Origin: Billgrantia tianxiuensis
GTDB lineage: Bacteria; Pseudomonadota; Gammaproteobacteria; Pseudomonadales; Halomonadaceae
Direction of reading: 5' to 3'
Assembly (NCBI RefSeq): GCF_009834345.1
Contig: NZ_CP035042.1
Location: forward strand, 372,001 to 436,000
DNA: 64,000 bases
The translations under genes were made by a program, and so were the position numbers. Positions 5,717 through 62,314 of this stretch are shown piece after piece (position 1 is the first letter of the stretch; every line of letters starts with the position of its first letter). The notes below the pieces were generated by a model that was not told the DNA's origin, did no database searches, and worked only from the letters and a program-made list of their open reading frames with translations.

Positions 5717-6655
5717 ATGAGCATTCTGGTACTCGCCGAACATCACGACGGCCAGCTCGCCGGCGCCACCGCCCACGTGGTCGCGGCGGCCCAGAAAGTG
5801 AAAGAGACCATTGGCGGCGACATCGACATCCTGGTCGCTGGCGAGAACGTCTCCGCCGTGGCCGAGGCCGCTGCCAAGCTCGACGGCGTGAGCAAGGTGC
5901 GGGTGGCCGACAACGCCGCCTACGCCCACCAGCTGGCCGAACCCCTGGGTGCGCTGCTGGTCGAGCTGGCCGGTGACTATTCCCATCTCCTCGCTGCTGC
6001 CTCCACCACCGGCAAGAACGTGCTGCCGCGCGTCGCCGCATTGAAGGACGTCAGCCAGCTCTCCGAGATCGTTGAAGTGGTCGATGCCGACACCTTCAAG
6101 CGCCCGATCTATGCCGGCAACGCCATCGCCACGGTCAAGAGTGCCGACAGCCTCAAGGTGATCACCGTGCGCACCACGGCGTTCGATGCGGTGTCAGCCG
6201 GCGGTAGCGCCAGCGTCGAGAGCGTCGAGGTCGTGGCCGAGAACACCCAGTCCACCTTCATCAAGCAGGAACTGGCCCAGAGCGATCGCCCCGAGCTGGG
6301 CGGTGCGCGGGTGGTCATCTCCGGCGGGCGCGGCATGGGCAGCGGCGAGAACTTCAAGCTGCTCGAAGGTATCGCCGACAAGCTGGGGGCCGCCATTGGC
6401 GCCTCACGGGCGGCGGTGGACGCCGGCTTCGTGCCCAACGACATGCAGGTGGGCCAGACCGGCAAGATCGTCGCGCCGGAGCTCTACATCGCCGTGGGCA
6501 TCTCGGGAGCCATCCAGCACCTGGCCGGCATGAAGGACTCCAAGGTGATCGTGGCGATCAACAAGGACGAGGAGGCACCGATCTTCCAAGTGGCCGATTA
6601 CGGCCTGGTTGGCGACCTGTTCGAGGTGCTGCCGGAGTTGGAACGCAAGCTGTAA
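5717..6655 (+). CDS. etfA: Electron transfer flavoprotein alpha subunit
   Basis: The start follows AAAGGAGAGA. The 312-residue product has the N-terminal ETF domain ([18 protein letters not shown]) and the C-terminal FAD-binding domain with [32 protein letters not shown] and [19 protein letters not shown]. This matches canonical ETF alpha in length and motifs. Probably co-transcribed with etfB. The gene ends 8 bp before the convergent thioesterase. Confidence 0.95.
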
Positions 6656-6662
6656 TCCCTCC

Positions 6663-7124
6663 TCAACGCCGCGGGATACCGATCCGTCGCCCGGCCGCCG
6701 CAGGCCAGGCGGCGGGCTCGGCCTGGGGCAGGGTGTCGATCTGCTCGGCTATCTCCGGCGGAAAGGGCGCGGGGCGGTGGCTGCTCGTGTCGATGCCCAT
6801 CAGCATCTGTTCGCTGGTGGCGAGGGTCTCGCCGGCTTCGTCGCTCATGGTGAAGAAGACGTGCAGGCGCTTGGCGTCGCGGTCGAGCAGCAGCACCTCG
6901 ACAGCCAGCGCCTGCCCCTGGTGGGCCTCGCGCCGGTAGCAGAGGTGGGTCTCCAAGGTGAAGAGGGTGTAGGCGAGACGCTCGCGCCCCTCGGCATCGA
7001 GGCCGGTCCGTTCCATTAGCGTATCCACCGCCAGCGAGAACACCCTGGCGTATTCGGCATCGTTCATGTGGCCGTTGTAGTCGACCCACTCCGGTGGGAC
7101 TCGAGTCGTCAGCAGTAGCGTCAT
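6663..7124 (-). CDS. Hotdog-fold acyl-CoA thioesterase (betainyl/4-hydroxybenzoyl-CoA thioesterase-like)
   Basis: The 153-residue protein starts [25 protein letters not shown]. The [18 protein letters not shown] stretch is the typical hotdog thioesterase N-terminal motif with the conserved Asp/His region. The motif resembles the thioesterases found with carnitine dehydrogenase (CdhB, which hydrolyses betainyl-CoA), a link based on motif memory only. Ribosome site AAGGGGAAA upstream. It converges on etfA and is divergent from the ABC importer operon at 7347. Substrate unknown; a quaternary-amine acyl-CoA would fit the neighbourhood. Confidence 0.7.
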
Positions 7125-22569: not shown

Positions 22570-22631
22570 TGATTAAAATTAAATTGGTTGGGGCGGATGA
22601 ATGAGGAAGTGGTATATGTGTTGGGTGAATT

Positions 22632-22648
22632 GATATGTTATAACATCT
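22632..22648 (+). promoter_or_regulatory. Zur box upstream of dksA2-cobW
   Basis: Contains the perfect 12-bp palindrome ATGTTATAACAT (22635-22646), the core of the gammaproteobacterial Zur operator, 23 bp before the dksA2 start codon. Position and target genes (zinc-free DksA paralogue and COG0523 GTPase) agree with zinc-responsive repression by Zur. Confidence 0.88.
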
Positions 22649-22668: not shown

Positions 22669-23097
22669 ATGCAGGCCGACCCCGAGGCGCAGCAACTGCT
22701 GGCAATGCCGGAAGAGGCGTATATGAACGCCGCCCAGCTCGACTACTTCCGACGTCGGCTCCTGGCCGAACAGGCCGAGGTGGAAGGGCATCTGGAGGAG
22801 GTGCGCAAGGCTATTGGCGACAACGAGCGCAGCGGTGACGAACTCGATCGCGCCGCGGTTGAGGAGGAGCTGCGCCTGCTGTTGCGCCAGGCCGATCGCG
22901 AGACGCGACTGTTGCGCAAGATCCGCCAGGCGCTGCGACGCATCGAGGAAGGCGACTACGGCTACTGTGCCGAAACCGGCCAGCCCATCGGTCTGCCGCG
23001 CCTGCTGCTGAGGCCGACGGCAGAGCTATGCCTGGAGGCCAAGGAGCGCCAGGAGCAGCGTGAGCATCACTACAGCAAATCGCGAGGAGACCAATGA
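22669..23097 (+). CDS. dksA2: Zinc-independent DksA paralogue (DksA2-type) RNA polymerase-binding factor
   Basis: The ATG at 22669 follows GGGAGAG. 142 residues: a coiled-coil region (about 20-95, charged, ending REGT-like in [19 protein letters not shown]), then the degenerate finger. Canonical DksA has CxxC...CxxC. Here the pairs read C100-A-E-T103 and C121-L-E-A124, so two of four zinc ligands are lost, as in Pseudomonas DksA2. Such paralogues replace zinc-containing DksA in the stringent response during zinc starvation. The gene overlaps the downstream COG0523 GTPase by 4 bp and has a Zur box upstream, which supports this role. Confidence 0.93.
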
Positions 23098-24332
23098 TGA
23101 CGAGTGCCCTGTTGCCCGTGACCGTGCTGTCCGGCTTCCTCGGTGCCGGCAAGACCACTTTGCTCAACCATATCCTGGCCAACCGGGAAGGGCGCCGCGT
23201 GGCGGTGATCGTCAATGACATGAGCGAGGTCAACATCGATGCCGCCCTGGTGCGAGGTGGCCCTGGTGAGAAGGAAGGTGAGGTCGCTCTCAATCGAGCC
23301 GAGGAGCGCCTGGTCGAGATGAGCAATGGCTGCATCTGCTGCACGCTGCGTGAGGATCTATTGGTGGAGGTGAGTCGTCTGGCGCGGGAAGGCCGCTTCG
23401 ACTACCTGGTCATCGAATCGACAGGCATCTCCGAGCCGTTGCCGGTGGCGGAGACCTTCACCTTTGAAGATGAGCAGGGGCAGAGCCTCTCCAGCGTTGC
23501 GCGGTTGGACACCCTGGTTACGGTGGTCGATGGCGCCAACTTCCTCGAGCAGTACTACGCGGCGAAATCCCTGGCCGAGGCGGGTGAGAGTCTCGGCGAA
23601 GGCGACGAGCGCAACGTGGCTGACCTGTTGGTCGATCAAATCGAGTTCTGCGACGTGCTGCTGATCAGCAAGACCGACCTGATCGACGAAGCACGGCTGG
23701 CAGAGGTGAAGGCCGTACTGCGCTCGCTCAACCCCGACGCCGAGCTGATCGCCATGGCCAATGGGCAGGTGCCGCTCGACAAGGTGCTCGATACTGGCCG
23801 CTTCAGTTTCGAGCGGGCCCAACTGGCACCGGGCTGGCTCAAGGAGCTGCGTGGCGAACACGTGCCCGAAACCCAGGAGTACGGTATCTCGAGCTTCGTC
23901 TACCGTGCCAGGCGGCCCTTTCATCCACAGAAGTTTCATGACCTCTTGCATGGCGACTGGTTCGGCGGCAAGCTGCTGCGGTCAAAGGGGTTCTTCTGGC
24001 TTGCCACACGGCCGCAGTTCGCCGGGCAATGGAGCCAGGCGGGCGGTATCGCCCACTACGGCTTTGCCGGCATGTTCTGGAAAGCGGTGCCCAAATCGCG
24101 CTGGCCCAAGGATGCGGAAAGCCGGGCTTATATCATGGAGCAGTGGGAAGAGCCTTTCGGCGACATGCGGCAGGAACTGGTCTTCATCGGGCAGAACCTC
24201 GATGAGGCCAGGATACGCCAGGCGCTGGACGACTGCCTGATCGGTTCTGCCGAACTGGCGGATGGTCCTGCGGGCTGGGCCTCTCTGCCCGATCCCTTTC
24301 CGGCCTGGGAGCACCCTGGCAGCATCGGGTAA
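23094..24332 (+). CDS. COG0523/CobW-family GTPase, zinc metallochaperone (ZigA/YciC-like)
   Basis: 412 residues. P-loop GFLGAGKTT (14-22), the COG0523 metal-binding motif C80-I-C82-C83 in [11 protein letters not shown], switch region [15 protein letters not shown], the base-recognition motif SKTD, and a C-terminal CobW_C domain ([18 protein letters not shown]). The 4-bp overlap with dksA2 and the shared Zur box place it in the zinc-limitation subgroup of metal chaperones. That subgroup hands zinc to essential enzymes (family knowledge; target unknown here). Confidence 0.92.
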
Positions 24333-25897: not shown

Positions 25898-27336
25898 TCA
25901 GGCCAGGGCCGAATCGAACTCCGGCTCCACTTCGCGCCGGCTGCCGTTGCCGAGTGCGATCCGCCGGTCGCAGATGCGCTCGACCAGGGCCGGGTCATGG
26001 CTCACCAGTATCACCCCACAGCGCCGCTCGCGGGCCAACTCGACCAGCAGCGCCAACGTTTGGCGCTGGGTGATGGGGTCGAGACGCGACGTTGGCTCGT
26101 CGGCAAACAGGAAGCACGGTTCGAGCAACAGCACGCGCAGGATGGCGAAACGCTGCAGCTCGCCGCCCGATATTTCACCGGGACGCCGGGCCAGCAGCCG
26201 CTCGTCGAGTCCCAGGCGTGTCATCAGCGGGGCGATGGCACTACGATCCAGGCGATGGCGTCGCACCAGGTCGTCGAGCAGACGCGAGAGCTGCCAGTGG
26301 GGAGAGAAGGCCGCCGGCGGATCCTGATAGAGCTTCTGGAAGCCGAGCGGATACCCCGGCGCCCGATGAACCTCACCATCGTCGGCATGCGTCACGCCCA
26401 GCAGCATGTCGCCCAGAGTACTCTTGCCGCAGCCGGAAGGGCCGACCACGCCGACGATCTCACCGGGACTGACCGAGAGCGAGAGATCGTGGAACAGTTG
26501 GCGTCCACCACGCGCCTTGACCAAACCACTGGCGCTCACCACCGCCGCCTGTCGCTCGCCCAGCGGTGTCGGGCGTGGCCAGCGGCTGGGTTCGGCATCC
26601 AGCAGGCGTCGGCCATACTCGCTCTGTGGGTGAGTGAGCACTTGCTGGGCCGGGCCGCGCTCGACCACCTGGCCCTGGCGCAGAATGACCACTTCGCCGC
26701 CGAGGCGGCGGGCCACGTCGATGTCGTGGGTAATGGTGACCAGGGCGCCGCCGCGTTCGGGCGTACGGGCCAGCAGCTCGACCACCGCATCTCGCCTGGG
26801 CGCATCGAGCCCCTTGGTCGGCTCGTCGGCGATGACGATGGGGCACCGCCGGCACTGGCGGCGGCGAAGGCCACTCGTTGTGCCATGCCGCCGGAAAGTT
26901 CGCCGGGCAGCTTGCCGCCGGCCTCCGGCAGGCCCAGCTCGGTCAGGTCGGCCCAGGCGGCCTGAAGCGACGCTCGGCGGTCGCGCCCGGCCACGTGGCG
27001 ATGGCTTTCGGCGACCTGGGCAACGGCGCGCATGGTCGGGTCCAGGGCATGCCACGGCTCCTGGGGCAGCAGTGCCAGGCGCCGGCCCCACAGGGTACGG
27101 CGCGACGTGCCGTCGGCGGCATCGAACGTCTCGCCATCGATGACGAGCCGCCCCTGGGCGGCAAGACCACGAGGCAGCGTGCCCATGATCGCCTGGGCGA
27201 TCAGGCTCTTGCCCGAGCCGGTCTCGCCGAGCAGGGTCAGGCGGCCGCCCGCCGCGAGAGCGCAGGAGAAGGGGGCGATGGTGACGCCCTCACCCTGGAT
27301 CGTGATGTCTTCGGCTTGAAGTAAGTACGCACTCAT
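25898..27336 (-). pseudogene. Fused double ABC ATPase (DppD-DppF-like) of the Zur-linked importer, frameshifted
   Basis: The start ATG overlaps the permease stop (ATGA at 27333-27336). Domain 1 has Walker A GETGSGKSLIAQ and signature LSGGMAQRVAFA in one frame. Its Walker B IVIADEPTKGLD and all of domain 2 (GPSGCGKSTLGD, ISGGELQRFAILR, FLFADEPTSRLD) are in another. The join is the G run 26840-26843 (C run on the coding strand); one added base gives 480 codons in one frame. As sequenced, the product would lose the first Walker B and the second domain, so the importer would be dead. A homopolymer error is plausible because everything else is conserved. A single polypeptide with two ATPase domains replaces the usual DppD and DppF pair. 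Confidence 0.85.
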
Positions 27337-28160
27337 CGTGGATCCCTTCCGGCCAGCAGGTTGAGGCTCAGCACCAGCACGAACAACACCACGATCGGCT
27401 GGGCCATGGCCCAGGGTGCCTCGTGGTAGTAGGGCAGCAGCTCGATCATCAACAGCCCCAGTTCGGCGGTGGGCGGGCGCAGGCCGACGCTGACGAAGCC
27501 CAGCGCGGCCATGGCGAGGATCGCGCTGGCGGCGCCGAAGGCGGCCAGGGTCAGCACCTGCGGGGCTAGCTCCGGCCACAGGTGGCGGCGGAACAGGTAG
27601 AGTGGACCGAAGCCGAGCAGGCGGCTCGCCTCGAGCTGCGGCGAGGCGACCAGGATTCGGGTGCGGGCCCGTACCACACGGAAGTACTCGATCCACAGCA
27701 CCAGCGAAATGCCGACGTACAGCGCCCAGAAGTTACCCGGGGCGATGGCGACGAGCAGCAGTACCAGCAGCAGGCCCGGCAGCGCCAGGCAGGCGTCGGC
27801 CAGGCTGCCCAGTACGCGGTCGAGCCAGCCGCCGCGCCAGCCGGCCATCACGCCGAGAATCACGCCCGGTATCGCAGCACTGGCCACGCTGAGCAGGGCC
27901 ATGCCCAGCGACAGGCGCACGGCACTGGCCAGGCGCGCCAGCAGGCTGCGCCCCAGGTGGTCGGTGCCGAGCGGCTCGGCCAGCGTCGGCAGTTGCAGGA
28001 TGCGTGTGAGCTGCTGGCGAGCGGGATCGGCATCGAACAGCCAGGGCACCAGCCAGGCGAAGGCGAGCAGCAGCGCCAGCAGCGCGGCGCCGAGCCGCTG
28101 ACGGCCGTTCAGCGTCGGCAGGGCAAGGCGGCGGGAAGGCGCCAGGGTTGAGACATTCAT
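27333..28160 (-). CDS. ABC transporter permease, DppC/NikC-like
   Basis: 275 residues, starting MNVSTLAPSRRLALPTLNGR. One N-terminal membrane helix, then the family motif LGTDHLGRSLLARLASAVRLSLGMALL, and the EAA loop QLEASRLLGFGPLYLFRRHLWPELAP. It overlaps both neighbours by 4 bp (ATGA junctions), giving strict translational coupling with the partner permease and the ATPase. Confidence 0.92.
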   Translation of the reverse strand: MNVSTLAPSRRLALPTLNGRQRLGAALLALLLAFAWLVPWLFDADPARQQLTRILQLPTLAEPLGTDHLGRSLLARLASAVRLSLGMALLSVASAAIPGVILGVMAGWRGGWLDRVLGSLADACLALPGLLLVLLLVAIAPGNFWALYVGISLVLWIEYFRVVRARTRILVASPQLEASRLLGFGPLYLFRRHLWPELAPQVLTLAAFGAASAILAMAALGFVSVGLRPPTAELGLLMIELLPYYHEAPWAMAQPIVVLFVLVLSLNLLAGRDPR

Positions 28161-29140
28161 GCGCTGCGCCTCCTGGGGTCGAGCCAGTGGCAGAGCAGGT
28201 CCACCACGGTATTGAGGGCGACGAACATTAGTCCCATCACCAGCGCGGTGCCCTGGATCATCGGCACGTCGCGGGCAACGATGGCATGTACCAGGGCATG
28301 GCCGATGCCGGGCCAGGCAAACAGGGTCTCGACCACTACCACGCCCTCGATCAGGTAGACGAACTGCACGCCGAGATAGGCGATCACCGGTACCGCGGCG
28401 TTGCGCAGGCCGTGGCGCAGGAAGCTCAGACGCTCGCCCAGGCCCTTGGTACGCGAAAAGGCGTAATAGGCCGATTGCGAGACGTCGGACATGGCATTGC
28501 GCGCCACCCGGCTGGAGATGGCGGCCAGGGCCAGCGCCAGGGTTAGCGCCGGGAGTATCCCGTGCGCGAAGCGGCCATGGCCGGCGGCTGGCAGCCAGCC
28601 CAGGGTGACCGAGAAGATCAGGATCAGCACCAGACCGACGGCGAAGGGGGGCAGGGCGCGCAGCACGCTGGCGGCCACTTCGCTTACGCGGTCCAGTGCA
28701 CCGTTGGGCTTGAGTCCGGCGAGCAGGCCAAGCGGCGGGCCCAGCAGCAGCGAGAGCAGCACGGCCAGGAAGGCCAGTCCCAGGGAATGGCCGAGCTGAT
28801 GCCAAAGCTCGGTCATCACCGGCTCGCCGCTGACCAGCGAGCGCCCCAGGTCGAGTTGCAGCAGGTCCCACAGCCAGCCGAAGTAGGCGCCGAGCGCCGG
28901 CTGGTCCAGTGCCAGCTCGGCACGTACCGCCTCGGCGGCACTGGTGTTGACCATGTCGTGCCCGTAGCGTCCGGCGGCGATGCGGTAGGCCATGTCGCCG
29001 GGCAATGAGCGAGTCAGCACGAAGGTGAGGGTGCCGACCATCCACGCCACCAGCCCGGCCTGGAACAGGCGCTGCAGCAGCAGGCTGCCAAGGCCTGCCG
29101 TCCAGCGCGGTGTCGTTCGTGATGCCAGGGTCACGCTCAT
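28157..29140 (-). CDS. ABC transporter permease, DppB/NikB-like
   Basis: 327 residues. It starts with a short cytosolic stretch and LLLQRLFQAGLVAWMVGTLTFVLTRSLPGDMA (the DppB first helix and LPGDP-like motif). The EAA loop is AYYAFSRTKGLGERLSFLRHGLRNAAVPVI. The end overlaps the DppC-like gene and the start overlaps the binding-protein gene by 4 bp each. Confidence 0.92.
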   Translation of the reverse strand: MSVTLASRTTPRWTAGLGSLLLQRLFQAGLVAWMVGTLTFVLTRSLPGDMAYRIAAGRYGHDMVNTSAAEAVRAELALDQPALGAYFGWLWDLLQLDLGRSLVSGEPVMTELWHQLGHSLGLAFLAVLLSLLLGPPLGLLAGLKPNGALDRVSEVAASVLRALPPFAVGLVLILIFSVTLGWLPAAGHGRFAHGILPALTLALALAAISSRVARNAMSDVSQSAYYAFSRTKGLGERLSFLRHGLRNAAVPVIAYLGVQFVYLIEGVVVVETLFAWPGIGHALVHAIVARDVPMIQGTALVMGLMFVALNTVVDLLCHWLDPRRRSA

Positions 29141-30663
29141 TCACTCCACCTCAGTTCGTCGATGCGATAGCTGCGCTCCAGCGGGTCGATGGAGAAGCCT
29201 TCCAGTTCGGCGTTGACCGCAGCCGTCTGCTGATACCAGGCCACGGGCACGACCGGCATCGCCTCGTTCAGACGGCGTGCCACCTGCTCCGCCAGCTCGC
29301 TGCGGGTTTCCATGTCGGCCACCTGGCGCAGGGTGTCGAGCCAACTGGCCAGGTCGTCGTCGCGCCAGCCCATGGCCCCCCAATCGCCGCCCATCGCTTC
29401 GGGATCGGTACCAAAGTCGTCAAGCAAAGTGCCGAGCGGGTCGGGCACCAGCCCGTAGTTACGCGCCATCATGCCCAGTTCCAGGCTGCCGTCGCGATGA
29501 CCGGAGGGAATCTCGCTGGCGTTGCCCACGGCGACTTCCAGCGCCACGCCGATCTCGCGCCACTGGTCCTGCAGGGCTGTCGCCACCAGCGGCAGTTCGG
29601 GGCGGTCGGAGAAGGTGCGCAGGGTCAGTTGGAACGGTTCGCCGTCGCGCTCGAGCATACCGTTGCCGTTGGCCTGCCAGCCCAGCTCGGCGAGCAGCTC
29701 GCGGGCCCGCTCCATGTCCTGGGCATCGCCTGCGTCGAGGCCGAGGTGCCAGGGGCCGAGGCTTGCCGGGAACAGCTCGGCGGCGGCGGCTTCGGGATCG
29801 CGCAGCAGGCCGGCGGCGATGCCCTCGCGGTCGATGGCCAGGCTCAGCGCCCGACGGGCGCGCTCGTCCTCAAGGAGGGGGTGCTCGGCATTAACCTTGA
29901 ACACGATGGTGCGCGGCAGCGGTTCGGCATGCAGGGCCAGGCGGTCATGACGCGCCAGCCGCGCGCGGCTGGCCGGGTCGAGGGTGAATACCACGTCGGC
30001 ATCGCCGCTCTCGGCCATCACGGCACGCGTCTCGCCGCGGCCCACCGCCAGGTAGCTGGCGGTGCCGATGGCGGGTGCCTCGCCCCAGTAATCGTCGAAG
30101 CGCTCCACATCGAGCCGCTGCGGCGGTGTTACCGTTGCCGCCCGATAGGGGCCGGTGCCGATCACCTGGACGACCCTGCCCTCGTCGTCATAGGCATCCG
30201 GGGCGAGGATCAGGGTGGTGGAGTGGGCGAGCAGAGCGGGCAGCGGGGCAAAAGCGCTCTCGAGCCGGATCACCACCTCGTTGCCGTCGGCTTCGATGGC
30301 GGTAATGGGAGCGGGATCGAGGATACCCGGCTTGGCCAGGGCATGCTCGAGGCTTGCCGCTGCGGCCTGCGCCGTCAGCGGGCTGCCATCGTGAAAGACG
30401 ACCCCTTCGCGCAGCGCGAAGCGCCAGGTCAGGCCATCGTCGGTGACCTCCCAGGCGCTGGCCAGGCCAGGGGCGGGCTGACCGCTGGCATCGGTGTCGA
30501 CCAGGGTCTCGGCGACGCGCATGCGGGCGAAGACATAGCCCGAGGTCGAGGGATCGACCCCGGTGATCTCCCAGGGAGCGACGACCGCCAGCGGGCGGTC
30601 GGCGAGAGCGGCCAGGGGCAGCAGGGCCAGGCCGAGGAGCAATGAACGAGGGGGCAGTGGCAT
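29137..30663 (-). CDS. SBP_bac_5 periplasmic binding protein of the Zur-linked importer
   Basis: The ATG at 30663 follows AAGGAAG; an alternative ATG is 18 bp upstream. 508 residues. The signal peptide MPLPPRSLLLGLALLPLAALA has no lipobox Cys, so the protein is soluble in the periplasm. The mature part has WEITGVDPSTSGYVFARMRVAETLVDTD and TWRFALREGVVFHDGSPLTAQAAAASLEHAL, the family-5 signature. This family includes oligopeptide, nickel-chelate and opine-metallophore binders. The gene lies 45 bp downstream of the DUF1826 gene, whose upstream region carries a Zur-like box, so a zinc-related ligand is suggested (inference). Confidence 0.9.
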   Translation of the reverse strand: MPLPPRSLLLGLALLPLAALADRPLAVVAPWEITGVDPSTSGYVFARMRVAETLVDTDASGQPAPGLASAWEVTDDGLTWRFALREGVVFHDGSPLTAQAAAASLEHALAKPGILDPAPITAIEADGNEVVIRLESAFAPLPALLAHSTTLILAPDAYDDEGRVVQVIGTGPYRAATVTPPQRLDVERFDDYWGEAPAIGTASYLAVGRGETRAVMAESGDADVVFTLDPASRARLARHDRLALHAEPLPRTIVFKVNAEHPLLEDERARRALSLAIDREGIAAGLLRDPEAAAAELFPASLGPWHLGLDAGDAQDMERARELLAELGWQANGNGMLERDGEPFQLTLRTFSDRPELPLVATALQDQWREIGVALEVAVGNASEIPSGHRDGSLELGMMARNYGLVPDPLGTLLDDFGTDPEAMGGDWGAMGWRDDDLASWLDTLRQVADMETRSELAEQVARRLNEAMPVVPVAWYQQTAAVNAELEGFSIDPLERSYRIDELRWSE

Positions 30664-30708
30664 TGCGGGTCTTCCTTGCATGAAGTTGAGGTTGGGGGGC
30701 TTTTGCTA

Positions 30709-31383
30709 TCAACCTGGATCCAGTGCCAGCAGCAGGCGGCGCTCACCAGGCGCCGGCTGAGGGCTGCGATGCACCAGGCCGCGTTCTTCGTTGCTGACCC
30801 AACCACAGCCTTTCAGCAGGGCCAGATCGCCTATGGCGAGCTGCCGAATGGCGGCAGGGTCGGCGACGATGTCGGGCTTGTCCGGATGTGGGGCGCCAAG
30901 CCCGGCGCGGTTGACGGCATGCTCCGGCAGCCACTCACTGGCCGGGCCGGCGTATGTGGTCACGAGGCGTACCGCCAGGTTATCGACGTGAAAGCGCGGG
31001 CACATGGCGCCTTCCAGCGTGCGCAGGCGAATGCCGATGGTGGCGGTCGAGAACAGGTAGGCCATGGCTTCGGCGATGTTGCCGATGTCTTCCACCAGCG
31101 CATCACCGGCCTCGGGGGCGGGTAGCCGGCGTGCCAGGTCCTCTTGCATGGCCAGGCCAGGCGCGCCACGCCAATGCCATTCGACCCCGCGCTGGCAGGC
31201 GAGCTGGCTGCGCACGGCCAGCGTGAGGGCCACGTCGAGCCGGCGCTCCATCACGGCCAGGGTGATGTGGTCGTCGAAGATACGAGGGAGCACCTCGATG
31301 TCCTGGCTGAATGCCCAGTGGGCAGATGAGGGCACGCCAAGCGGCGTGATTACCTGGGAATGGGGAGTCGAGAGGGCTGGCAT
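30709..31383 (-). CDS. DUF1826 domain protein, Zur-regulon-associated
   Basis: A 224-residue soluble protein with no signal peptide. DIGNIAEAMAYLFSTATIGIRLRTLEGAMCPRFHVDNLAVRLVTTYAGPASEWLPE and GDLALLKGCGW resemble the DUF1826 family. Conserved polar residues (C-x-x-F-H-x-D) look like a metal or cupin-type site. Family knowledge: DUF1826 genes recur beside COG0523 GTPases and DksA2 in zinc-limitation loci of gammaproteobacteria. Biochemical function unknown. First gene of the leftward operon; ribosome site weak (AAAGG). Confidence 0.8.
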   Translation of the reverse strand: MPALSTPHSQVITPLGVPSSAHWAFSQDIEVLPRIFDDHITLAVMERRLDVALTLAVRSQLACQRGVEWHWRGAPGLAMQEDLARRLPAPEAGDALVEDIGNIAEAMAYLFSTATIGIRLRTLEGAMCPRFHVDNLAVRLVTTYAGPASEWLPEHAVNRAGLGAPHPDKPDIVADPAAIRQLAIGDLALLKGCGWVSNEERGLVHRSPQPAPGERRLLLALDPG

Positions 31384-31420
31384 GGGGGCAACCTTTGGTG
31401 AGGCGGCGTGGCGTTGAAAA

Positions 31421-31440
31421 GAGACTATATAACATAACGC
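31421..31440 (-). promoter_or_regulatory. Zur-like box upstream of DUF1826 operon
   Basis: The minus strand reads GCGTTATGTTATATAGTC. The left 11 bases (GTTATGTTATA) match the Zur palindrome GTTATGTTATAACATAAC and the box before dksA2; the right half is degenerate. It is centred about 47 bp upstream of the DUF1826 start. The rest of 31441-31683 shows no gene, only an untranslated leader for iorA. Confidence 0.7.
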
Positions 31441-31683
31441 AAGTAGGGCTTGGCAAACATCCCCCGATGCGCCGTGAAGGAGTTGGTCAGTTCAACGACA
31501 GGATCAGGCAATGATCCGCCAGTAATGAGCTAATCCTTGAAAAGGCTTCCTTCCTATACTCCGCCGTAGTCTCGATTACCGAGCCGGTCGAAGCTCCGCC
31601 CGGCGCCTTTCCTGTCCCACTTCTCTCCCCTGACATAGGCCATCCAGCGCCTTTCCCATAACCAGAAAAGCATGAGGAATCCC

Positions 31684-32142: not shown

Positions 32143-32153
32143 GGAGTGTTGTG

Positions 32154-34408
32154 ATGGGAATTCTCAAGCATGTATCAGCGCCCAAGCCGGAAGCCGTGGG
32201 TGTCGTCAACATCAGCAGGCGCCGTTTTCTGCAGGGCTCCACCGGCCTGGTGCTGGGTCTTTACCTGGCGCCATTAACCTTGAATGGCAGCCGGGCTGAA
32301 GCGGAAGAAGGCGCGGAGGCCGACTTCGAGCCCAATGCCTTCGTGCGGATTACCGCCGACGGCACCGTCATAGTCCTGGCCAAGCATCTGGAGATGGGGC
32401 AGGGCACCTATACCGGACTCGCCACCCTGGTGGCCGAGGAGCTGGATGCGGACTGGAGCCGGGTGAGAGTGGAAGGCGCCCCTGCGGATGCCGAGCGCTA
32501 CAAGAACCTGGCCTTTGGTCTGCAAGGCACCGGGGGAAGCACGGCCATCGCCAACTCCTACGAACAGATGCGTACGGCCGGCGCCACGGCCCGTGCCATG
32601 CTGGTGGCGGCTGCCGCCGAGCGCTGGGGTGTCGCCGCCGAGAGCATCAGCGTCAGCCAGGGAGTGGTGCGGCACCGGGAATCAGGGCGCGAGGCAGGGT
32701 TCGGCGAGCTTGCCGAAGCCGCCGCCGAGCTGCCGGTACCGCAGGAGGTGACGCTCAAGGATCCCGAGGACTTCACCCTGATCGGGACGCTGAACACACC
32801 ACGCACGGACAGCGCCGGCAAGACCGACGGCAGCGCCATGTTTACTCAGGACATGAAGTTGCCGGGCATGCTGATCGCGGTAGCCGCACACCCGCGCCGC
32901 TTCGGTGCCCGTGTCGCGAGCTTCGACGACACCAAGGCCAGGGAGGTGCCCGGCGTTGTCGAGGTCGTGCCATTTGCCGGCGGTCCCCACCGCTTCGAGG
33001 GCGTGGCAGTGCTGGCGGAGAACACCTGGGCGGCGAGCCAAGGGCGCAATGCGCTGGAGATCGAATGGGACGACAGCCAGGCCTTCTCGTTGGGCAGCGA
33101 GGAGATCATGGCGCGCTACCGTGAACTGGCCGAGGAGGAAGGGGCGATAGCGGCGCGACATGGCGACGTGGTCTCGGCGCTGTCCGAGCCGGCGACCCTG
33201 ATCGAGGCCGATTATGAGTTTCCCTACCTCGCCCATGCGGCCATGGAGCCGATGAACTGCCTGGTCGAGCTGGGCGACGAGCGTTGCGATATCTGGAACG
33301 GTGAGCAGTGGCAAACGATGGACCAGCAGTTGGTGGCGGAGCTGCTGGGCATTGCCCCGGAGAATGTCAGCCTGACGCAGCTGTATGCCGGGGGCAGCTT
33401 CGGTCGGCGTGCCAACCCCTATTCGGATTTCGTGCTGGAGGCGGTCTCGATCGCCATGGCTGCGCGTGAGCAGGGGATCGAGGCCCCCGTCAAGCTGGTC
33501 TGGATGCGCGAGGACGATACCCGTGGTGGCTACTATCGGCCGATGAATTTCCATCGTGGGCGCCTGGCGCTCGATGCCGACGGTCAGCTGATCGCCTGGC
33601 ATCAACGCCTGGTTGGCCAGTCGATCCTGCAGGGAACGGCGCTGGAATCCTTCCTGGTGCAGGATGGTATCGACGCGACCTCGGTCGAAGGCGCCGCGAA
33701 CCTGGCCTACGACGTGCCCAATCTGCAGGTCGAGCTGCATACGCCGGAGGATATCGGGGTGCCGGTGCAATGGTGGCGGGCCGTGGGGCACACGCATACC
33801 GCGTTTTCGACGGAGTGCCTGATCGATGAGGCGGCGGTCGCTGCCGAACAGGATCCGGTGGCGTTTCGTCGCGCGTTGCTGAGCCAGCATCCCCGCCACC
33901 GCGGCGTACTGGATCTGGTGGCGGAGAAGGCCGGCTGGGAGCAGCCGCTCGCGCCCGGTAGCGATGGGCAGCGGCGCGGCCGGGGAGTCGCCGTACACGA
34001 GTCCTTCAATTCCTTCGTGGCGCAGGTGGCCGAGGTCACGGTGGAGGAAGATGGCAGCTATCGCGTCGACCGGGTCGTATGTGCCGTGGATTGCGGGGTT
34101 GCCGTCAACCCGGACGTGATCAAGGCGCAGATGGAAGGCGGGATCGGCTTCGGCCTGGCGGCCGCGCTGCACGGCGAGATCACCCTGGAGGAGGGGTCGT
34201 GCAGCAATCCAATTTCCATGACTACGAGGTATTGCGTATCAACGAGATGCCGGCGGTGGAGGTGCACATCGTACCGTCGACCGAAGCCCCTACCGGGGTC
34301 GGCGAGCCGGGCGTGCCGCCAATTGCCCCGGCTGTGGCCAACGCCCTCTTCGATGCAAGCGGCGAGCGCTTGCGCAGGATGCCGTTCGCCCAGCGGCTCC
34401 CGGTCTAG
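32154..34408 (+). pseudogene. iorB: Molybdopterin-binding subunit of a xanthine-dehydrogenase-family hydroxylase (IorB-like), frameshifted near the C-terminus
   Basis: The ATG follows AAGGAGTG. A twin-arginine signal (SRRRFLQG) indicates folded export to the periplasm. The body carries LEMGQGTYTGLATLVAEELDADWS, GEQWQTMDQQLVAE, YAGGSFGRRANP and VQWWRAVGHTHTAFS, all typical of the IorB/membrane aldehyde dehydrogenase group. At the G run 34193-34196 the frame breaks. One added G restores [19 protein letters not shown] and [21 protein letters not shown], which holds the catalytic Glu (GVGE), for 752 codons in all. As sequenced, the long frame ends in about 70 unrelated residues and lacks the active-site Glu. 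Confidence 0.85.
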
Positions 34409-34422
34409 GCGCAAGGCGTAAC

Positions 34423-35460: not shown

Positions 35461-35640
35461 GTTCGTCTCCCCCTAGGCACGGTTCACCTGCTGCTTTTCA
35501 TTAAACCATGTGCCAGGCCCAATGCCAGTCGCTCCTGAAGCTCCGCGGGTGCGTTATTGGCATCGCCCGGGGCTGCGAGGTCGGCTATGTTAGGGTGTCG
35601 ATTCTTGCACCAATAAGGGGCAGTCCAACGGGGAGGGGGC

Positions 35641-36515
35641 ATGTCGCCGTCATTGAAGGGAATTCTTTTCATGTGTGCCGGCGTGCTCTGCCTGGCCATT
35701 GGCGATGCCATTGCCAAGTGGCTGGGCGAGGTGCACTCGCCGTTGCAGATCATCTTCTTTCGCACTCTGGTCTCGCTGCCGCTGATCGCCGTGCTGGCAC
35801 ACTTCGGTGGCGGATTGACCAAGCTACGCACTCGTCGGCCCGGGGTTCACCTGGTGCGCGGCCTGATCTACACCGGCACCATGGGCTTCTTCGTACTGGG
35901 GTTGACCATGCTGCCGCTGGCCGAGGCTACGGCCATTGCCTTTGCTGCACCGCTGTTCGTCACGCTGCTCTCGGTGCCGTTGCTCGGCGAGCGGGTCGAT
36001 TACCAGGTCGTGGCGGCTTCGCTGCTGGGCTTTGCCGGTGTGATGGTGGTGGTGCGGCCGGGGGCGAGGGCTTCCATCCCGGTGCGTTGGTCATGCTGGC
36101 CGCGGCGGTTTTCTATGCGTTGCTGATGATCACCTCACGACGCTACGGTGGCCGCGAGCATCTTTGGGCGATGGTGTTCTACATCACCCTGGTGCCGCTG
36201 GTGGTCTCCTCCGTCACCCTGCCATGGGTCTGGCAGACGCCCCATCCCTGGCATTGGCTGGGATTCCTCGGTGCCGGGGTCATCGGGGTGGGTGCCACGG
36301 CCTGCATCACCATGGCCTTTCGCTTCGCCCCGGCGGCCATCGCCGCACCGTTCGACTATACCGCCATGCTGTGGGCGGTACTGCTGGGGTGGTGGTTCTG
36401 GGGCGAGATGCCCGATGTGTGGGTTTTCGTCGGCAGCGCCTTGATCATCGGAAGCGGGCTGGGGATCGCTTATCATGATCGCCGGACCACGCTGAAGCGT
36501 CGCCCCACCTCGTGA
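35641..36515 (+). pseudogene. EamA/DMT-family membrane transporter, frameshifted
   Basis: The ATG follows GGGGAGG. The first frame encodes the N-terminal EamA repeat (GILFMCAGVLCLAIGDAIAKWLG through MLPLAEATAIAFAAPLFVTLLS). After the G run 36060-36064 the second frame gives GEGFHPGALVMLAAAVFYALLMITSRRYGG and the second EamA repeat to the end. One added G gives 292 codons, the usual size of about 290 residues and ten membrane segments. As sequenced, the product would stop after about five segments. Substrate unknown; such proteins export amino acids or small metabolites. Confidence 0.85.
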
Positions 36516-36678: not shown

Positions 36679-37617
36679 CTACGTCTGGCTGGTCTGGTTG
36701 AGCCTCCAGCGCCGCCAGTGACGGGCCACCAGGCCATGCTTGGGCGCGGCGAGCAGGGCGACGAGGAAGAGCCCCGAGGCGACCAGTACGATGGCGCCGC
36801 CCGAGGCGACGTCCAGCCTGACCGAGAGCACCAGTCCCACCACGGCTGAGATCACGCCGACGCCGACCGAAATCGCCAGCATGGTGGTGAAACGATCGGT
36901 GAGCAGGTGGGCCGTGGCGCCGGGGGTGATCAGCATCGCCACCACCAGAATGATACCGACGGTTTCCAGGCTGGCGACGATGGTCAGCGTCAGCAGCAGG
37001 ATCAGGCCGTAGTGGATGACGCTGGTGTTGAAGCCCAGCGCCTGGGCCTGCTGCGGATCGAAGGTATAGAGCAGCAGCGGGCGATAGGCCAGCCAGACGA
37101 CCAGCAGCGCTACCAGGCTGGCCACCAGCGTGAGGATCAGTGCCGAGGTCTGCACGCCCAGCACGTTGCCGAAGAGGATGTGCATCAGGTGTGTGCTGGT
37201 GGCGATCTTGCTGATGATCACGATGCCCAACGCAAAGGCGGCGGTGAACATCAGTCCCATCGCCGCATCCGACTTGATGCGGGTGTGGCGCTCGATGGCG
37301 CCGATGCCCAGCGAGGTCAACGCCCCGGTGACGAAGGCGCCGATGAAGAACGGCCAGCCCAGCAGGTAGGCGATGGCCACGCCGGGCAGCACGGCATGGG
37401 AGATGGCGTCGCCCAGCAGCGACCAGCGCTTGAGCACCACGTAGCAGGAGAGCAGGCCGCAAATCGCTCCCACCAGCACCGAGGTAAGCAGGGCGCGCTG
37501 CATGAAGCGGTATTCGAAGGGCGCGGCCAGGTTCTCGGGCAGCAGGTTCACTACCATCATCAACAGAGCGGTCAGGGCGTCGATCATGCCAAGCGCCAGG
37601 CTTTCAAGCGGCAACAC
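36679..37617 (-). CDS. Metal (Mn/Zn/Fe) ABC transporter permease (ABC-3 family)
   Basis: The proposed GTG start at 37617 follows a good GGAGGTGAGC ribosome site and overlaps the ATPase gene by 14 bp; an ATG at 37587 lacks one. About 312 residues with eight to nine membrane segments. The ABC-3 signatures LLTSVLVGAICGLLSCYVVLKRWSLLGDAISHAVLPGVAIAYLLG and SLETVGIILVVAMLITPGATAHLLTDRF are present. The permease of a manganese-type transporter, judged by the mntR gene beside the operon. Confidence 0.9.
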   Translation of the reverse strand: MLPLESLALGMIDALTALLMMVVNLLPENLAAPFEYRFMQRALLTSVLVGAICGLLSCYVVLKRWSLLGDAISHAVLPGVAIAYLLGWPFFIGAFVTGALTSLGIGAIERHTRIKSDAAMGLMFTAAFALGIVIISKIATSTHLMHILFGNVLGVQTSALILTLVASLVALLVVWLAYRPLLLYTFDPQQAQALGFNTSVIHYGLILLLTLTIVASLETVGIILVVAMLITPGATAHLLTDRFTTMLAISVGVGVISAVVGLVLSVRLDVASGGAIVLVASGLFLVALLAAPKHGLVARHWRRWRLNQTSQT

Positions 37618-38392
37618 GCTCACCTCCGGGCAACGCTTCGCGGGCACCCACCGCCAGGCGCGCCAGCATGGCATCGCTGAGCATCTCGTCCGGCGTGCCC
37701 ATGCCGACCAGGGTGCGATTGATCAGCAGGACGTTGTCGGCATACAAGCGGGCGCTGGGCATGTCATGAGTCACCATGATGATCGTACGCCCGATGCTTC
37801 GCTCGCGCTCGAGCGTGTTCAGTATCAGCGTTTCGCTGGGAGGGTCCACCCCCGCCAGCGGCTCGTCGAGCAGCAGAATCCTGGCCTGCTGTGCCAGGGC
37901 GCGTGCCAGCATCACCCGCTTCTTCTGTCCGCCGGAAAGCTCGCCGATGGGACGTGCGGCATGGTCGGCCATATCGACGGCTTCCAGCGCGGCCTCCACG
38001 GCCTGGCGGTGGCTGGGGTTGGCCCACTGCCTCGGTAGCAGCCGCTGCCATAAGGAATCATGGCGCATCAGGCCGTAGCGACCGGTCAGCACCGTGTCGC
38101 GCACCGAAATGGGAAAGTCCCACTCCATGCGCTCCTGTTGGGCCATGTAGGCGATGCTGCCGGCCCTGCGCTGCGAGGCCGCACTCTGACCCAGTATCTT
38201 CAGCTCGCCGCGCAGCGGCGCGAGGCTGCCGATCATCAGGTTGAGCAGGCTCGACTTGCCCGCGCCGTTGGGACCGACGATAGCCGTCCACTGCCCTTGG
38301 GGCAGCGAGAGGGAAATGTCTTCGAGCACGGGCTGCTGGTGGTAGGCCGCCCACAGCCGTCGTGCTTCGAGTGCGGGGACCGAATCAGTCAT
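37604..38392 (-). CDS. Metal ABC transporter ATP-binding protein (MntB/SitB-like)
   Basis: 262 residues. Walker A GPNGAGKSSLLN, Q-loop YMAQQERMEWDFPISVRDTVLTGRYG (typical of Mn/Zn ATPases), signature LSGGQKKRVMLARALA, Walker B ILLLDEPLAGVD, H-loop MVTHDMPSARLYAD. It overlaps the binding-protein gene by 8 bp and the permease by 14 bp, in one leftward operon. Confidence 0.92.
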   Translation of the reverse strand: MTDSVPALEARRLWAAYHQQPVLEDISLSLPQGQWTAIVGPNGAGKSSLLNLMIGSLAPLRGELKILGQSAASQRRAGSIAYMAQQERMEWDFPISVRDTVLTGRYGLMRHDSLWQRLLPRQWANPSHRQAVEAALEAVDMADHAARPIGELSGGQKKRVMLARALAQQARILLLDEPLAGVDPPSETLILNTLERERSIGRTIIMVTHDMPSARLYADNVLLINRTLVGMGTPDEMLSDAMLARLAVGAREALPGGERVAA

Positions 38393-39299
38393 GTCCGCCT
38401 CCCAGGGCTTCGATCAGCAGCGCCACATTGTGGCGCAGCATGGCAGGGTAGTTCGGCGCCTCGCCGTCCGGCTCGCTGAGCGAGTCGACGTAGAGGGGGC
38501 CGGCGATCTGCACCTCGGTTTCGTTGGCCACGCTGCGCACGTGGCGGTCGGAAATGGTGCTCTCCCAGAAGATGGCAGCCGGTTTCCGCTCTTCTATCTT
38601 GTCGACGATACGCATGATCTGTCGCGGCGAGCCTTCTTCCTCGGCATTGGTGCCCCAGATGCCGTCGTGCTCGAAGCCGAAGGCATCGGCAAAGTAGACG
38701 AAGGCCGCCTCGCTGGTAATGAGCAGGCGCCGCTCCTCGGGTAGCGCGGCGAGGGCGTCGGTCAGCTCCTCGTGCAGGGCATGCAGCGACTCGCCCAGCG
38801 CGTCGGCACGCGCGTGGAAGGCCTCGGCAGCGGCGGGCCTGGCCTCGGCCAGGGCCTCGGCGATCACCCGGGCGTATTCGGCGACGGCGCGCGGATCCAT
38901 CCACATGTGCGGATCGGTTTCGCCGGCGAGTTCTCCAGTGGCGATCGGCAGGGTGGCATAGCCGCTCTCCTCTGCCAGGGCGACCAGCGGCACGCCGTCG
39001 CCCACGGTGGCCTCGACCTGGCCGATCCACTGCTCGAGGCCATAGCCGTTGTAGAACACGACTTCGGCCTTCTCGAGGGCGATGAAGTTGCTCGGCACCA
39101 GTTCCCACTCGTGCACTTCTGCGCCGACCGGGGTCAATACCGCCACCTCGGCAGCATCGCCCGCTACCTCGCGCACCAAGTCGCCCAGCACGGAAAAGGT
39201 GGCCGCCACTCTGAGCGGGGCCTCTCCGGCATGGGTCGTCATGAACGGCAGGGATAGCGCAAGGACGCTGAGCAGCTTCACTCCCTTGGGAAGGGGCAT
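38385..39299 (-). CDS. Metal ABC transporter substrate-binding protein (Mn-type cluster A-I)
   Basis: 304 residues, ribosome site GGAGAT. A signal peptide (MPLPKGVKLLSVLALSLPFMTTHA) is followed by the TroA fold APLRVAATFSVLGDLVREVAGD. Likely metal ligands are the His in AEVHEWELVP, the His in DPHMWMDPR, a Glu in the ITSEAAFVYFADAFG region and a late Asp (YVDSLSEPDG). There is no His-rich loop, unlike the ZnuA at 61171, which favours manganese or iron. An MntR-type box lies 69 bp upstream. Confidence 0.9.
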   Translation of the reverse strand: MPLPKGVKLLSVLALSLPFMTTHAGEAPLRVAATFSVLGDLVREVAGDAAEVAVLTPVGAEVHEWELVPSNFIALEKAEVVFYNGYGLEQWIGQVEATVGDGVPLVALAEESGYATLPIATGELAGETDPHMWMDPRAVAEYARVIAEALAEARPAAAEAFHARADALGESLHALHEELTDALAALPEERRLLITSEAAFVYFADAFGFEHDGIWGTNAEEEGSPRQIMRIVDKIEERKPAAIFWESTISDRHVRSVANETEVQIAGPLYVDSLSEPDGEAPNYPAMLRHNVALLIEALGGGHD

Positions 39300-39367
39300 C
39301 GATCGATCTCCTTTAGCGCAGGTCGTTGAAGCATGGTTGTTTCATTTCAGTGAGTTTCTAAGTGCAT

Positions 39368-39383
39368 GGCTAATATTTTAGCC
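39368..39383. promoter_or_regulatory. MntR-type operator between the Mn transporter and mntR
   Basis: GGCTAATATTTTAGCC is a perfect GGCTAA / TTAGCC inverted repeat with a 4-bp centre. It lies between the divergent metal transporter operon and the mntR gene, so one bound MntR dimer could repress both. Confidence 0.65.
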
Positions 39384-39463
39384 AAGGTTAAGTTGTAGGG
39401 TAGTAGGAAATCTCTATCGGGCGCCAGTTGCTGCCCTATCAGGACTTTGGCTATATTGGCGCG

Positions 39464-39946
39464 ATGACCGACTCCCCGAACGATGTGACGCCGGATCGCC
39501 TTTGCAAGGCGGATGCCCTGCCGCCCAGCGACCAGCATGCGCAGCAGTACGTTGCCGTGCGCAACGCCCATGAAACCGAGCTTCTCGAAGATTACGTAGA
39601 GCTGATCGCCGATCTGCTGGAGCATCAGGGTGAGGCGCGCGCGACGGATATCGCTGCCCGTATGGGAGTCAGCCAGGCCACGGTGTCGAAGACGGTGACC
39701 CGGCTCAAGGCGCTGGGGCTGGTCTCCAGCAAGCCCTACCGCTCGCTGTTCCTGACCGAAAAAGGGGAGGCGATGGCGGTGATGTCGCACCAGCGACATG
39801 CCATCGTGCTGCAGTTCCTGCGTGCCCTCGGGGTCAGCGATCGCACCGCGCGTATCGATGCCGAAGGCATGGAGCACCACGTCAGCCAGGAGACCCTGGA
39901 CATCATGCAGCGCTTCACTCGCGAGCAGGAGCGCCGCGGCTCCTGA
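39464..39946 (+). CDS. mntR: Manganese-responsive DtxR-family regulator MntR
   Basis: 160 residues from the ATG at 39464; an upstream TTG at 39428 is possible and neither has a good ribosome site. The winged helix EDYVELIADLLEHQGEARATDIAARMGVSQATVSKTVTRLKALGL and the dimerisation/metal region AEGMEHHVSQETLDIMQRF match E. coli-type MntR, which lacks the SH3 domain of DtxR. The metal ligands E-x-x-H-H are present in EGMEHHVS. Divergent from the transporter it probably controls. Confidence 0.93.
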   Translation: MTDSPNDVTPDRLCKADALPPSDQHAQQYVAVRNAHETELLEDYVELIADLLEHQGEARATDIAARMGVSQATVSKTVTRLKALGLVSSKPYRSLFLTEKGEAMAVMSHQRHAIVLQFLRALGVSDRTARIDAEGMEHHVSQETLDIMQRFTREQERRGS

Positions 39947-61170: not shown

Positions 61171-62277
61171 CTAGTGTGTATGGCCGTGATCATGGTCGTG
61201 ATCGTGGCCATGCCCATGATCGTCATGGCCGGGCTCGGCCAGGGCGTCGTGCAGCACCTGGGCGTTGTGGCGCATCATGCCCAGATAGGTGCTGGCTTCA
61301 CCTTCTGCAGAGAGAGCATCGGCATAGAGCGTACCGGCGATGGGCAGGCCGGTCTCTTCGGCGAGCTGGTTGATCACTGCCGGGCTGGTCATGTTCTCGT
61401 GGAACAGGGCGCGTACGTTCTGCTCGCGAATCACGTCGATCAGCCGGGCCATGTCGGCAGCACTGGGCTCGGCTTCGGTGGAGAGGCCGACCGGTGAGAG
61501 AAAACGAATGCCGTAGGCGTTGGAGAAATAGCCGAAGGAGTCGTGGCCGGTGATCACGCTGGTGGAGGCCGGAATCTCGCCCAGCAGCTCGCGAATCTCG
61601 GCGTCGGTGGCTTCCAACTCGTTGATGTAGCGCTCGGCGTTCTCGCGGTAGGCGGCTTCGTTGTCCGGGTCCGCCTCGATCAGGCCATCACGGATATTGC
61701 CCACATAGACCTTGCCCATGGCCAGGTCCTGCCAGGCATGGGGGTCGTAGTCGCCATGTGCATGGTCGTGATCGTCGTGGCCGTGATCATCGTGGTCGTC
61801 GTGGCCGTGATCATCGTGGTCATGTCCATGGTCGTCGTGGTCGTGATCGTCGTGGCCATGCCCATGGTCGTCGTGGTCGTGATCGTCATGGTCATCGTGA
61901 CCATGCGCATGCTCATGGTCATGGCCTTGGTAGTCGAGCCTCTCGATGCCATCGGTGGCCGTCACCAGCGGTCCGCTGTAGTCGCTGGAGTCGATCAAGC
62001 GTTCCATCCAGCCTTCGAACAGCAGGCCGTTGAACACCACCAGGTCGGCATCGGCCAGCGAGCGCGCATCGCGCGGGCTGGGAGAAAAGACGTGAGTGTC
62101 GCTGTCGGGTCCGACCAGCGAGGTGACCTCCACGTGCTCGCCCCCCACGTTCTGCACCATGTCGGCCAGGATGCTGAAGCTGGTGACGACCTGGACGCGT
62201 TCGGCGGCAATGGCGGCAGGCAGAGCCAGCATGGCCGAGGCGCCCAGCATCAGGGCGGCGGGTGTAGCGTGTCGCAT
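61171..62277 (-). CDS. znuA: High-affinity zinc-binding protein ZnuA with expanded His/Asp-rich loop
   Basis: The ATG at 62277 follows GAGGAGG. 368 residues. A signal peptide ends near PAAIAA, then ERVQVVTSFSILADMVQNVGGEHVEV. Ligand His residues lie in DSDTHVFSPSPRD and YDPHAWQDLAMGK, and a later His in TGHDSFGYFSNAYG. Between about 116 and 178 is a low-complexity loop of HD/DH/HG repeats, and the C-terminus is a second short His-rich tail. ZnuA proteins usually have a much shorter His loop. Last gene of znuCBA. Confidence 0.93.
   Translation of the reverse strand: MRHATPAALMLGASAMLALPAAIAAERVQVVTSFSILADMVQNVGGEHVEVTSLVGPDSDTHVFSPSPRDARSLADADLVVFNGLLFEGWMERLIDSSDYSGPLVTATDGIERLDYQGHDHEHAHGHDDHDDHDHDDHGHGHDDHDHDDHGHDHDDHGHDDHDDHGHDDHDHAHGDYDPHAWQDLAMGKVYVGNIRDGLIEADPDNEAAYRENAERYINELEATDAEIRELLGEIPASTSVITGHDSFGYFSNAYGIRFLSPVGLSTEAEPSAADMARLIDVIREQNVRALFHENMTSPAVINQLAEETGLPIAGTLYADALSAEGEASTYLGMMRHNAQVLHDALAEPGHDDHGHGHDHDHDHGHTH
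61745..61925. repeat. Low-complexity tandem repeat encoding the ZnuA His/Asp loop
   Basis: Imperfect repeats built from GTGGTCGTGATCGTC-like units (coding strand GACGATCACGACCAC), with longer duplicated blocks. Such repeats tend to expand or contract by slippage, so the His count may differ among strains. Confidence 0.8.
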
Positions 62278-62314
62278 GGAAAGCCTCCTCAAGGAATTGG
62301 TGTTTTAGGTATCT

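Follow-up and report, generated by a model that had tools for sequence, protein, structure and literature searches.

The 64,000-nucleotide stretch of the Billgrantia tianxiuensis genome analyzed here (the window; contig NZ_CP035042.1, positions 372,001 to 436,000) carries on its minus strand an operon that probably encodes a zinc-responsive importer. The operon consists, in order, of a DUF1826 gene, the gene for an SBP_bac_5 substrate-binding protein (SBP), two BPD_transp_1 permease genes, and a gene for a double ATP-binding cassette (ABC) ATPase (Table 1). Genes overlap by 4 bp at each of three junctions, namely, SBP/permease 1, permease 1/permease 2, and permease 2/ATPase. An alternative ATG at 30663, judged by eye, is the likelier start of the SBP gene, and the N terminus of the protein resembles a signal peptide; provided that the gene begins there, the gap between DUF1826 and the SBP gene is 45 bp. 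The order of DUF1826, SBP, and two permeases, the overlaps, and the gap had been read in an initial annotation and are borne out by Pfam and by the coordinates. The closest named relatives of the SBP belong to Billgrantia species.

Table 1. Positions of the operon, of Zur-like sites, and of other zinc-type genes in the window
Feature	Positions	Strand	Basis
Zur-like site before DUF1826 (good half GTTATGTTATA, other half weak)	31423..31441	-	Pattern and matrix
DUF1826 protein, 224 aa	30709..31383	-	PF08856, 178 bits (Pfam)
SBP_bac_5 binding protein	29137..30681	-	PF00496, 230 bits (Pfam)
Permease 1 (BPD_transp_1)	28157..29140	-	Pfam and NCBIfam
Permease 2 (BPD_transp_1)	27333..28160	-	Pfam and NCBIfam
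Double ATPase, start at 27336, frame broken in the assembly	25898..27336	-	Pfam
Zur-like site before dksA2, the best in the window	22629..22647	+	Matrix
dksA2 (DksA paralogue), start 22669 by eye	22669..23097	+	Pfam and NCBIfam, scanned from 22675
zigA (COG0523 zinc metallochaperone GTPase)	23094..24332	+	NF038288, 696 bits, cutoff 600
His-rich metal binding protein of a zinc-type ABC operon	61171..62292	-	By eye, without family search

The half-box GTTATGTTATA at 31428-31438 lies 45 bp ahead of the DUF1826 start; the initial annotation had placed it at about 47 bp. The exact 11-mer occurs three times in the 5.0-Mb genome, and the three copies lie ahead of DUF1826, a COG0523 gene, and an ATPase gene within a zinc-type ABC operon, each of which is tied to zinc; the copy before DUF1826 is more than a chance occurrence. 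The same genome search gave a single further match, GTTATATTATA, beside which no zinc gene was recognized. The variant GTTATGTTATATAGT was found repeatedly ahead of DUF1826 or the SBP gene in relatives. Scores come from a matrix whose training set comprised 21 sites ahead of zigA and dksA2; none of these sites precedes an SBP gene, although some of them lie in divergent promoters common to DUF1826 genes and one has one wrong flanking letter. Across the window, the dksA2 site, itself a training site, ranked first (21.5), followed by the DUF1826 site (9.6) and a third site at only 1.6. The dksA2-zigA unit behind the top-scoring box agrees with the second Zur-linked unit (dksA2-cobW) previously proposed nearby. 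A looser pattern with up to three mismatches gave 26 matches in the window versus 18 expected, which is not clearly over chance, and most other Zur-pattern matches across the genome led to nothing. The zinc-type ABC operon with the His-rich binding protein runs past the window end, and Zur-like sites are present at 436112 and 437155 of G000. The genome also contains a Zur-like gene, which exceeds the cutoff of PF01475 and matches NF008646 best (118 bits, under the cutoff of 167).

Among 151 genomes of the family Halomonadaceae, to which the window belongs, DUF1826 is present in 55 and a close relative of the SBP (E value of 1e-60 or better) in 30. Adjacency of DUF1826 and the importer, on whose conservation the initial annotation had staked its reading, recurs in 9 of these 30 genomes, which leaves that reading unrefuted. 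It was not seen in the remaining 21, one of which (G032) has both genes at contig ends. Twenty of the 21 loci were retrieved (G030 was left out), and one of these was cut by a contig end. All of the 19 evaluable loci have a site scoring at least 10.1 within -350 to +60 of the SBP start, compared with a background in which 99% of the windows scored below 7.6. The scan of relatives for an upstream Zur motif, proposed with the initial annotation, was therefore positive. With no adjacency seen in 21 of the 30 genomes and a separate box at each of the 19 scored loci, the regulation does not hinge on DUF1826, which was rejected as the origin of the Zur link. In one relative (L078), DUF1826 and its box are kept and the importer is reduced to a scrap matching the first permease, which is perhaps a case of importer loss under way.

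In a wider scan, the 80 best loci were kept from 299 that encode the importer, and 79 of the 80 were evaluable; these loci come partly from the same genomes as the family sample, so the two sets of counts overlap. A score of at least 9 was reached in 54 of the 79 loci, versus 0.65% of 3983 background windows, which possibly contain some genuine sites. By group, the fractions were 12/14 for DUF1826-linked loci, 14/15 for other loci at 60% identity or more, and 28/50 below 60%. The control set comprised 29 SBP_bac_5 rows from five genomes, 24 of them outside the importer family (two are pieces of one gene, and one is below the cutoff). These 24 scored no higher than 2.1 close to the start and no higher than 2.7 across their entire loci of 3 to 4 kb, with no Zur-like site. 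In the same genomes, three SBPs of the family with their own promoter scored 17.6 to 23.8, and the two SBP genes behind DUF1826 (G111 and G000) lack a start-proximal site, with sites of 19.0 and 9.6, respectively, further upstream at the DUF1826 start. The family SBPs share 24 to 32% identity with 21 paralogues and form a clade of 27 without any paralogue, with a support of just 0.51. These controls bear on the possibility that the operon encodes an ordinary peptide or amino acid importer with a metal-free cargo, placed under Zur for the recycling of zinc-binding peptides or nutrients. Dpp and Opp do belong to the same fold family, but the lack of a Zur-like site at the other 24 SBP_bac_5 rows and the separation from the paralogues, weakly supported as the clade is, argue against this explanation, which we regard as unlikely.

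One system from this family has been studied experimentally. In Paracoccus denitrificans, the seven-gene operon pden1338-1344 was upregulated 8.6- to 16-fold under zinc depletion and, with a chelator in the medium, 7.7- to 9.8-fold (Neupane 2017, PMC5387054). In that report, a Zur motif is listed ahead of both pden1338 and pden1341, each target promoter fragment is reported to be retarded by Zur, and the authors, who assign no specificity to the importer, describe Zur control of a cluster C system as "somewhat unusual". A protein database entry for an SBP of P. denitrificans (P0132) is 54% identical to the SBP of the window and is probably Pden1341; a homologous, zinc-linked SBP-permease-permease-ATPase operon of the Pden1341-1344 type is thus found here. 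The Zur control predicted for the importer family, and proposed in the initial annotation for the importer of the window, is well supported by 19 of 19 family loci, 54 of 79 wider loci, and the P. denitrificans results (PMC5387054).

Genes around the importer in relatives are recurrently of zinc type. In four betaproteobacterial loci of Hydrogenophaga and Rhodoferax (L166, L169, L185, and L189), the importer lies behind a zinc-type ABC operon, with a COG0523 gene in between in two of them; the best model for the SBP of L166 is AztC (301 bits versus a cutoff of 350). Both plasmid copies of the Paracoccus aestuarii locus have a zinc ABC operon downstream of the importer, and in one copy a Fur-family regulator is also annotated; the importer of Pantoea ananatis is divergent from zigA. 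In L067, DUF1826 and the SBP gene flank an AztB-like zinc permease gene (211 bits versus a cutoff of 280, with PF00950 over its cutoff), and the same gene was read in L068. In Pseudosulfitobacter (L209), a COG0523 gene and a DUF6525 gene (6627-6914) are ahead of the SBP gene, at whose start there is no site; DUF6525 is a further protein of unassigned role in a zinc-type operon. No zinc gene is listed beside the importer in the annotated plasmid loci of Azospirillum, Sulfitobacter, Roseinatronobacter, and Agrobacterium vitis, of which three have a site of 13.3 to 20.9 and Sulfitobacter (L211) has none. The data support the gene content, the Zur-like boxes, and a linkage to zinc genes that extends over several classes. 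Two side observations concern zinc genes elsewhere. A Zur-like gene in L215 (983-1866) is followed by a hisI-like gene (by eye), a zinc-sparing paralogue of a known type (PMC2770081). A COG0523 gene outside the window (L102, 8295-9349) is preceded by a perfect Zur-like box and is divided over two frames.

The neighborhoods also bear on whether DUF1826 and the importer adjoin by chance, sharing a regulon and not a pathway. The adjacency is limited to the 9 family genomes mentioned above, with one more at contig ends, and to 14 of the 79 wider loci, which speaks for chance placement. The pairing nevertheless recurs in Microvirga (L156) and in an alphaproteobacterial metagenome-assembled genome (L179), where COG0523 and DUF1826 genes both precede the importer; the two DUF1826 genes are confirmed by Pfam (128 and 172 bits, respectively). 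L179 has a shortened version of the COG0523 gene. We consider chance adjacency improbable, and DUF1826 may act in the pathway of the importer.

The initial annotation described a complete importer ending in a two-domain ATPase, but in the assembly the ATPase is not intact. ATPase domains 1 and 2 lie in different frames, with the switch between 26866 and 26845, past the LSGG signature of domain 1. The frame is open for 460 to 598 codons in 105 of the 110 loci with an ATPase gene behind the SBP gene, a count that includes the window itself and some genomes twice. The remaining five are the window, L201 and L202 (contig end), L206 (421 codons), and L120 (broken). Split open reading frames (ORFs) affect 3 of the 29 window ORFs comparable with relatives (the ATPase and those at about 34.2 and 36.1 kb), although the 29 may include antisense ones. 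Assembly indel errors are the likeliest cause of the split, and genuine decay of the ATPase gene is a less likely alternative.

The protein sequences themselves are less specific about the substrate. The best NCBIfam model for the SBP is Opp5A_nikA (229 bits versus a cutoff of 600), and a nickel-type permease model scored 291 bits, also below its cutoff. The NCBIfam equivalog scores for NikA, NikB, NikC, NikD, and NikE were all below the curated cutoffs, CntA-level similarity was not reached (124 bits versus a cutoff of 800), and the nickel and opine equivalog models were far under their cutoffs. By profile, the closest solved chains are nickel-binding proteins, including E. coli-type NikA and 5yhe, which we take to be the staphylopine protein CntA. 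The SBP contains no Cys, and across 27 family rows just three of its eight His residues (97, 312, and 395) reach a conservation of at least 93%; a ZnuA-like site for bare zinc is therefore unlikely. Our best guess is that the cargo is a zinc complex. The operon could instead encode a Zur-controlled nickel or cobalt importer, by which these metals are taken in under zinc starvation to fill zinc sites or zinc-sparing enzymes, the latter being partners of COG0523 proteins. The nickel-type models closest to the SBP and permease, the neighboring ZigA, which is a COG0523 protein, and a larB gene near the importer in one plasmid locus fit such a function, as does the report that zinc-starved Cupriavidus metallidurans can swap some zinc for cobalt, although not for nickel (PMC11340326). 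On the other side, every nickel-type score is under its curated cutoff, the recurring linked genes are of zinc type, and no nickel gene was recognized by eye among the 45 commonest neighbor clusters. To our knowledge, nickel importers are not expected under Zur. On balance, nickel or cobalt import appears rather unlikely.

We consider it fairly probable that the operon encodes a Zur-repressed Opp/Nik (cluster C) importer of a zinc-ligand complex, which backs up a bare-ion zinc ABC importer. When zinc is scarce, Zur would leave the box, and DUF1826, the binding protein, the two permeases, and the double ATPase would be made together. The binding protein would then most likely capture zinc already held by a small organic ligand, such as histidine, a peptide, or an opine-like metallophore, whether produced by the cell or by its neighbors, and pass it to the permeases as a backup for the ordinary zinc ABC importer of the bare ion. 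Several observations weigh against this reading. The closest SBP and permease models are nickel-type and fit nickel equally, and no ZnuA-like three-His site is evident in the SBP. The DUF1826 site of the window is weak (9.6), with higher scores in most of the relatives, and the ATPase frame is broken. No ligand-synthesis gene was recognized by eye among the 45 commonest neighbor clusters, and the opine dehydrogenase family PF10100 was found in 0/1, 0/151, and 0/274 genomes, in a search that matched no positive control and excluded CntL. In addition, 25 of the 79 wider loci score below 9. Eleven of these 25 (L156, L158, L159, L162 [weakly], L165, L166, L169, L179, L185, L189, and L194) have a COG0523, Zur, or zinc-type ABC gene in the vicinity; the other 14 have neither a box of at least 9 nor a linked zinc gene, with some on short contigs and one (L167) having a site of 22.8 barely outside the range of that scan, at -302. 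The zinc-ligand cargo of the initial annotation stays something that we infer, while the Zur control that it proposed stands.

More speculatively, the family may represent a widespread second zinc route in Proteobacteria, with Zur-controlled import of zinc on ligands that the cell does not make (zincophore piracy or Zn-amino acid uptake), DUF1826 as an enzyme freeing the zinc or handing it on, and re-export of the ligand, in some Halomonadaceae, by an EamA-type exporter whose divergent gene has the Zur-like box in common with the operon; we hold this extended scheme to be doubtful. If true, a broad Opp/Nik-type Zur importer without a recognized ligand-synthesis gene would suggest uptake of chelated zinc by many environmental Proteobacteria, and DUF1826 and this SBP, both of unassigned role, would gain a testable job.

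Sixteen of the 80 wider loci, all Halomonadaceae-named, have an EamA-type exporter gene upstream of the operon in the opposite orientation, and the EamA family is confirmed by Pfam in one of these relatives (L146). A Zur-like box is positioned between the EamA-type gene and the operon in L146 and L131, and coregulation is possible. The corresponding gene of the window (35635-36515) has a frame broken at about 36072, and other genes intervene between it and the operon. In the window and some relatives, a xanthine dehydrogenase-type gene pair sits between DUF1826 or the SBP gene and EamA; in the window, the oxidoreductase large subunit (by eye) is at 32151-34421, with its frame broken at about 34.2 kb. 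Further on, at 36679-39946, an MntR gene (206 bits; cutoff, 153) adjoins a cluster A metal ABC importer operon. The ABC operon at 36.7 to 39.3 kb was rejected as ZnuABC, as it is beside MntR and fits zinc and manganese models alike, all below the cutoff; the upstream labels "ZnuAlike/ZnuBwin" (and a weak "ZnuC") in Billgrantia-type loci were therefore not counted as zinc genes.

Gram-negative zinc uptake has been described mainly via ZnuABC-type importers of bare zinc and via importers attached to opine synthesis clusters. CntABCDF, an Opp/Nik-type system for metallophore uptake, comprises an SBP, permeases, and two ATPase domains, as does the system studied here; unlike the window, it has separate ATPases (CntD and CntF) and synthesis genes alongside, and the window scores are far below the cutoffs. 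NikABCDE is of the same transporter type, and solved NikA-type proteins are among the closest, but the window scores are below the cutoff and the gene context is zinc-type. ZnuABC, AztABC, and ZniCBA share Zur control and the response to zinc starvation, whereas they use cluster A binding proteins for bare zinc with PF00950 permeases in place of SBP_bac_5 and BPD_transp_1. ZniCBA and ZnuA are under Zur control in zinc starvation (PMC12183173), and opine zincophore clusters include Opp-type importers (PMC7438024). A Francisella Zur study detected DUF1826 by RNA-seq and refers to a Zur site predicted upstream of a DUF1826 gene of Pseudomonas fluorescens (PMC5786701); DUF1826 is also named in the legend to a figure of COG0523 clusters (PMC2770081). 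A Zur review names znuABC, aztABC, and yciC in its P. denitrificans row, and not the Pden1338-1344-type importer (PMC6103462). PMC5387054 was the sole report of a Zur-controlled importer of this type found in a search that excluded subscription papers and RegPrecise. The importer kind is therefore already known from one species, P. denitrificans; within the literature searched, the breadth of the family, the recurrent DUF1826 operon, including two alphaproteobacterial loci, and the presence in two genomes of an AztB-like zinc permease gene within the operon are new. The initial annotation knew of no described system with such a gene set, but Pden1338-1344, with a COG0523 gene, two hypothetical genes, and an Opp/Nik-type importer, is one. 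Both systems have an SBP, two permeases, and one ATPase gene from the same protein family, and a Zur motif precedes the SBP gene in P. denitrificans. In Pden1338-1344, the importer comes after the COG0523 gene and two hypothetical genes, whose sequences were not seen, and no DUF1826 gene is mentioned, whereas in the window DUF1826 leads the operon and COG0523 is in a separate unit.

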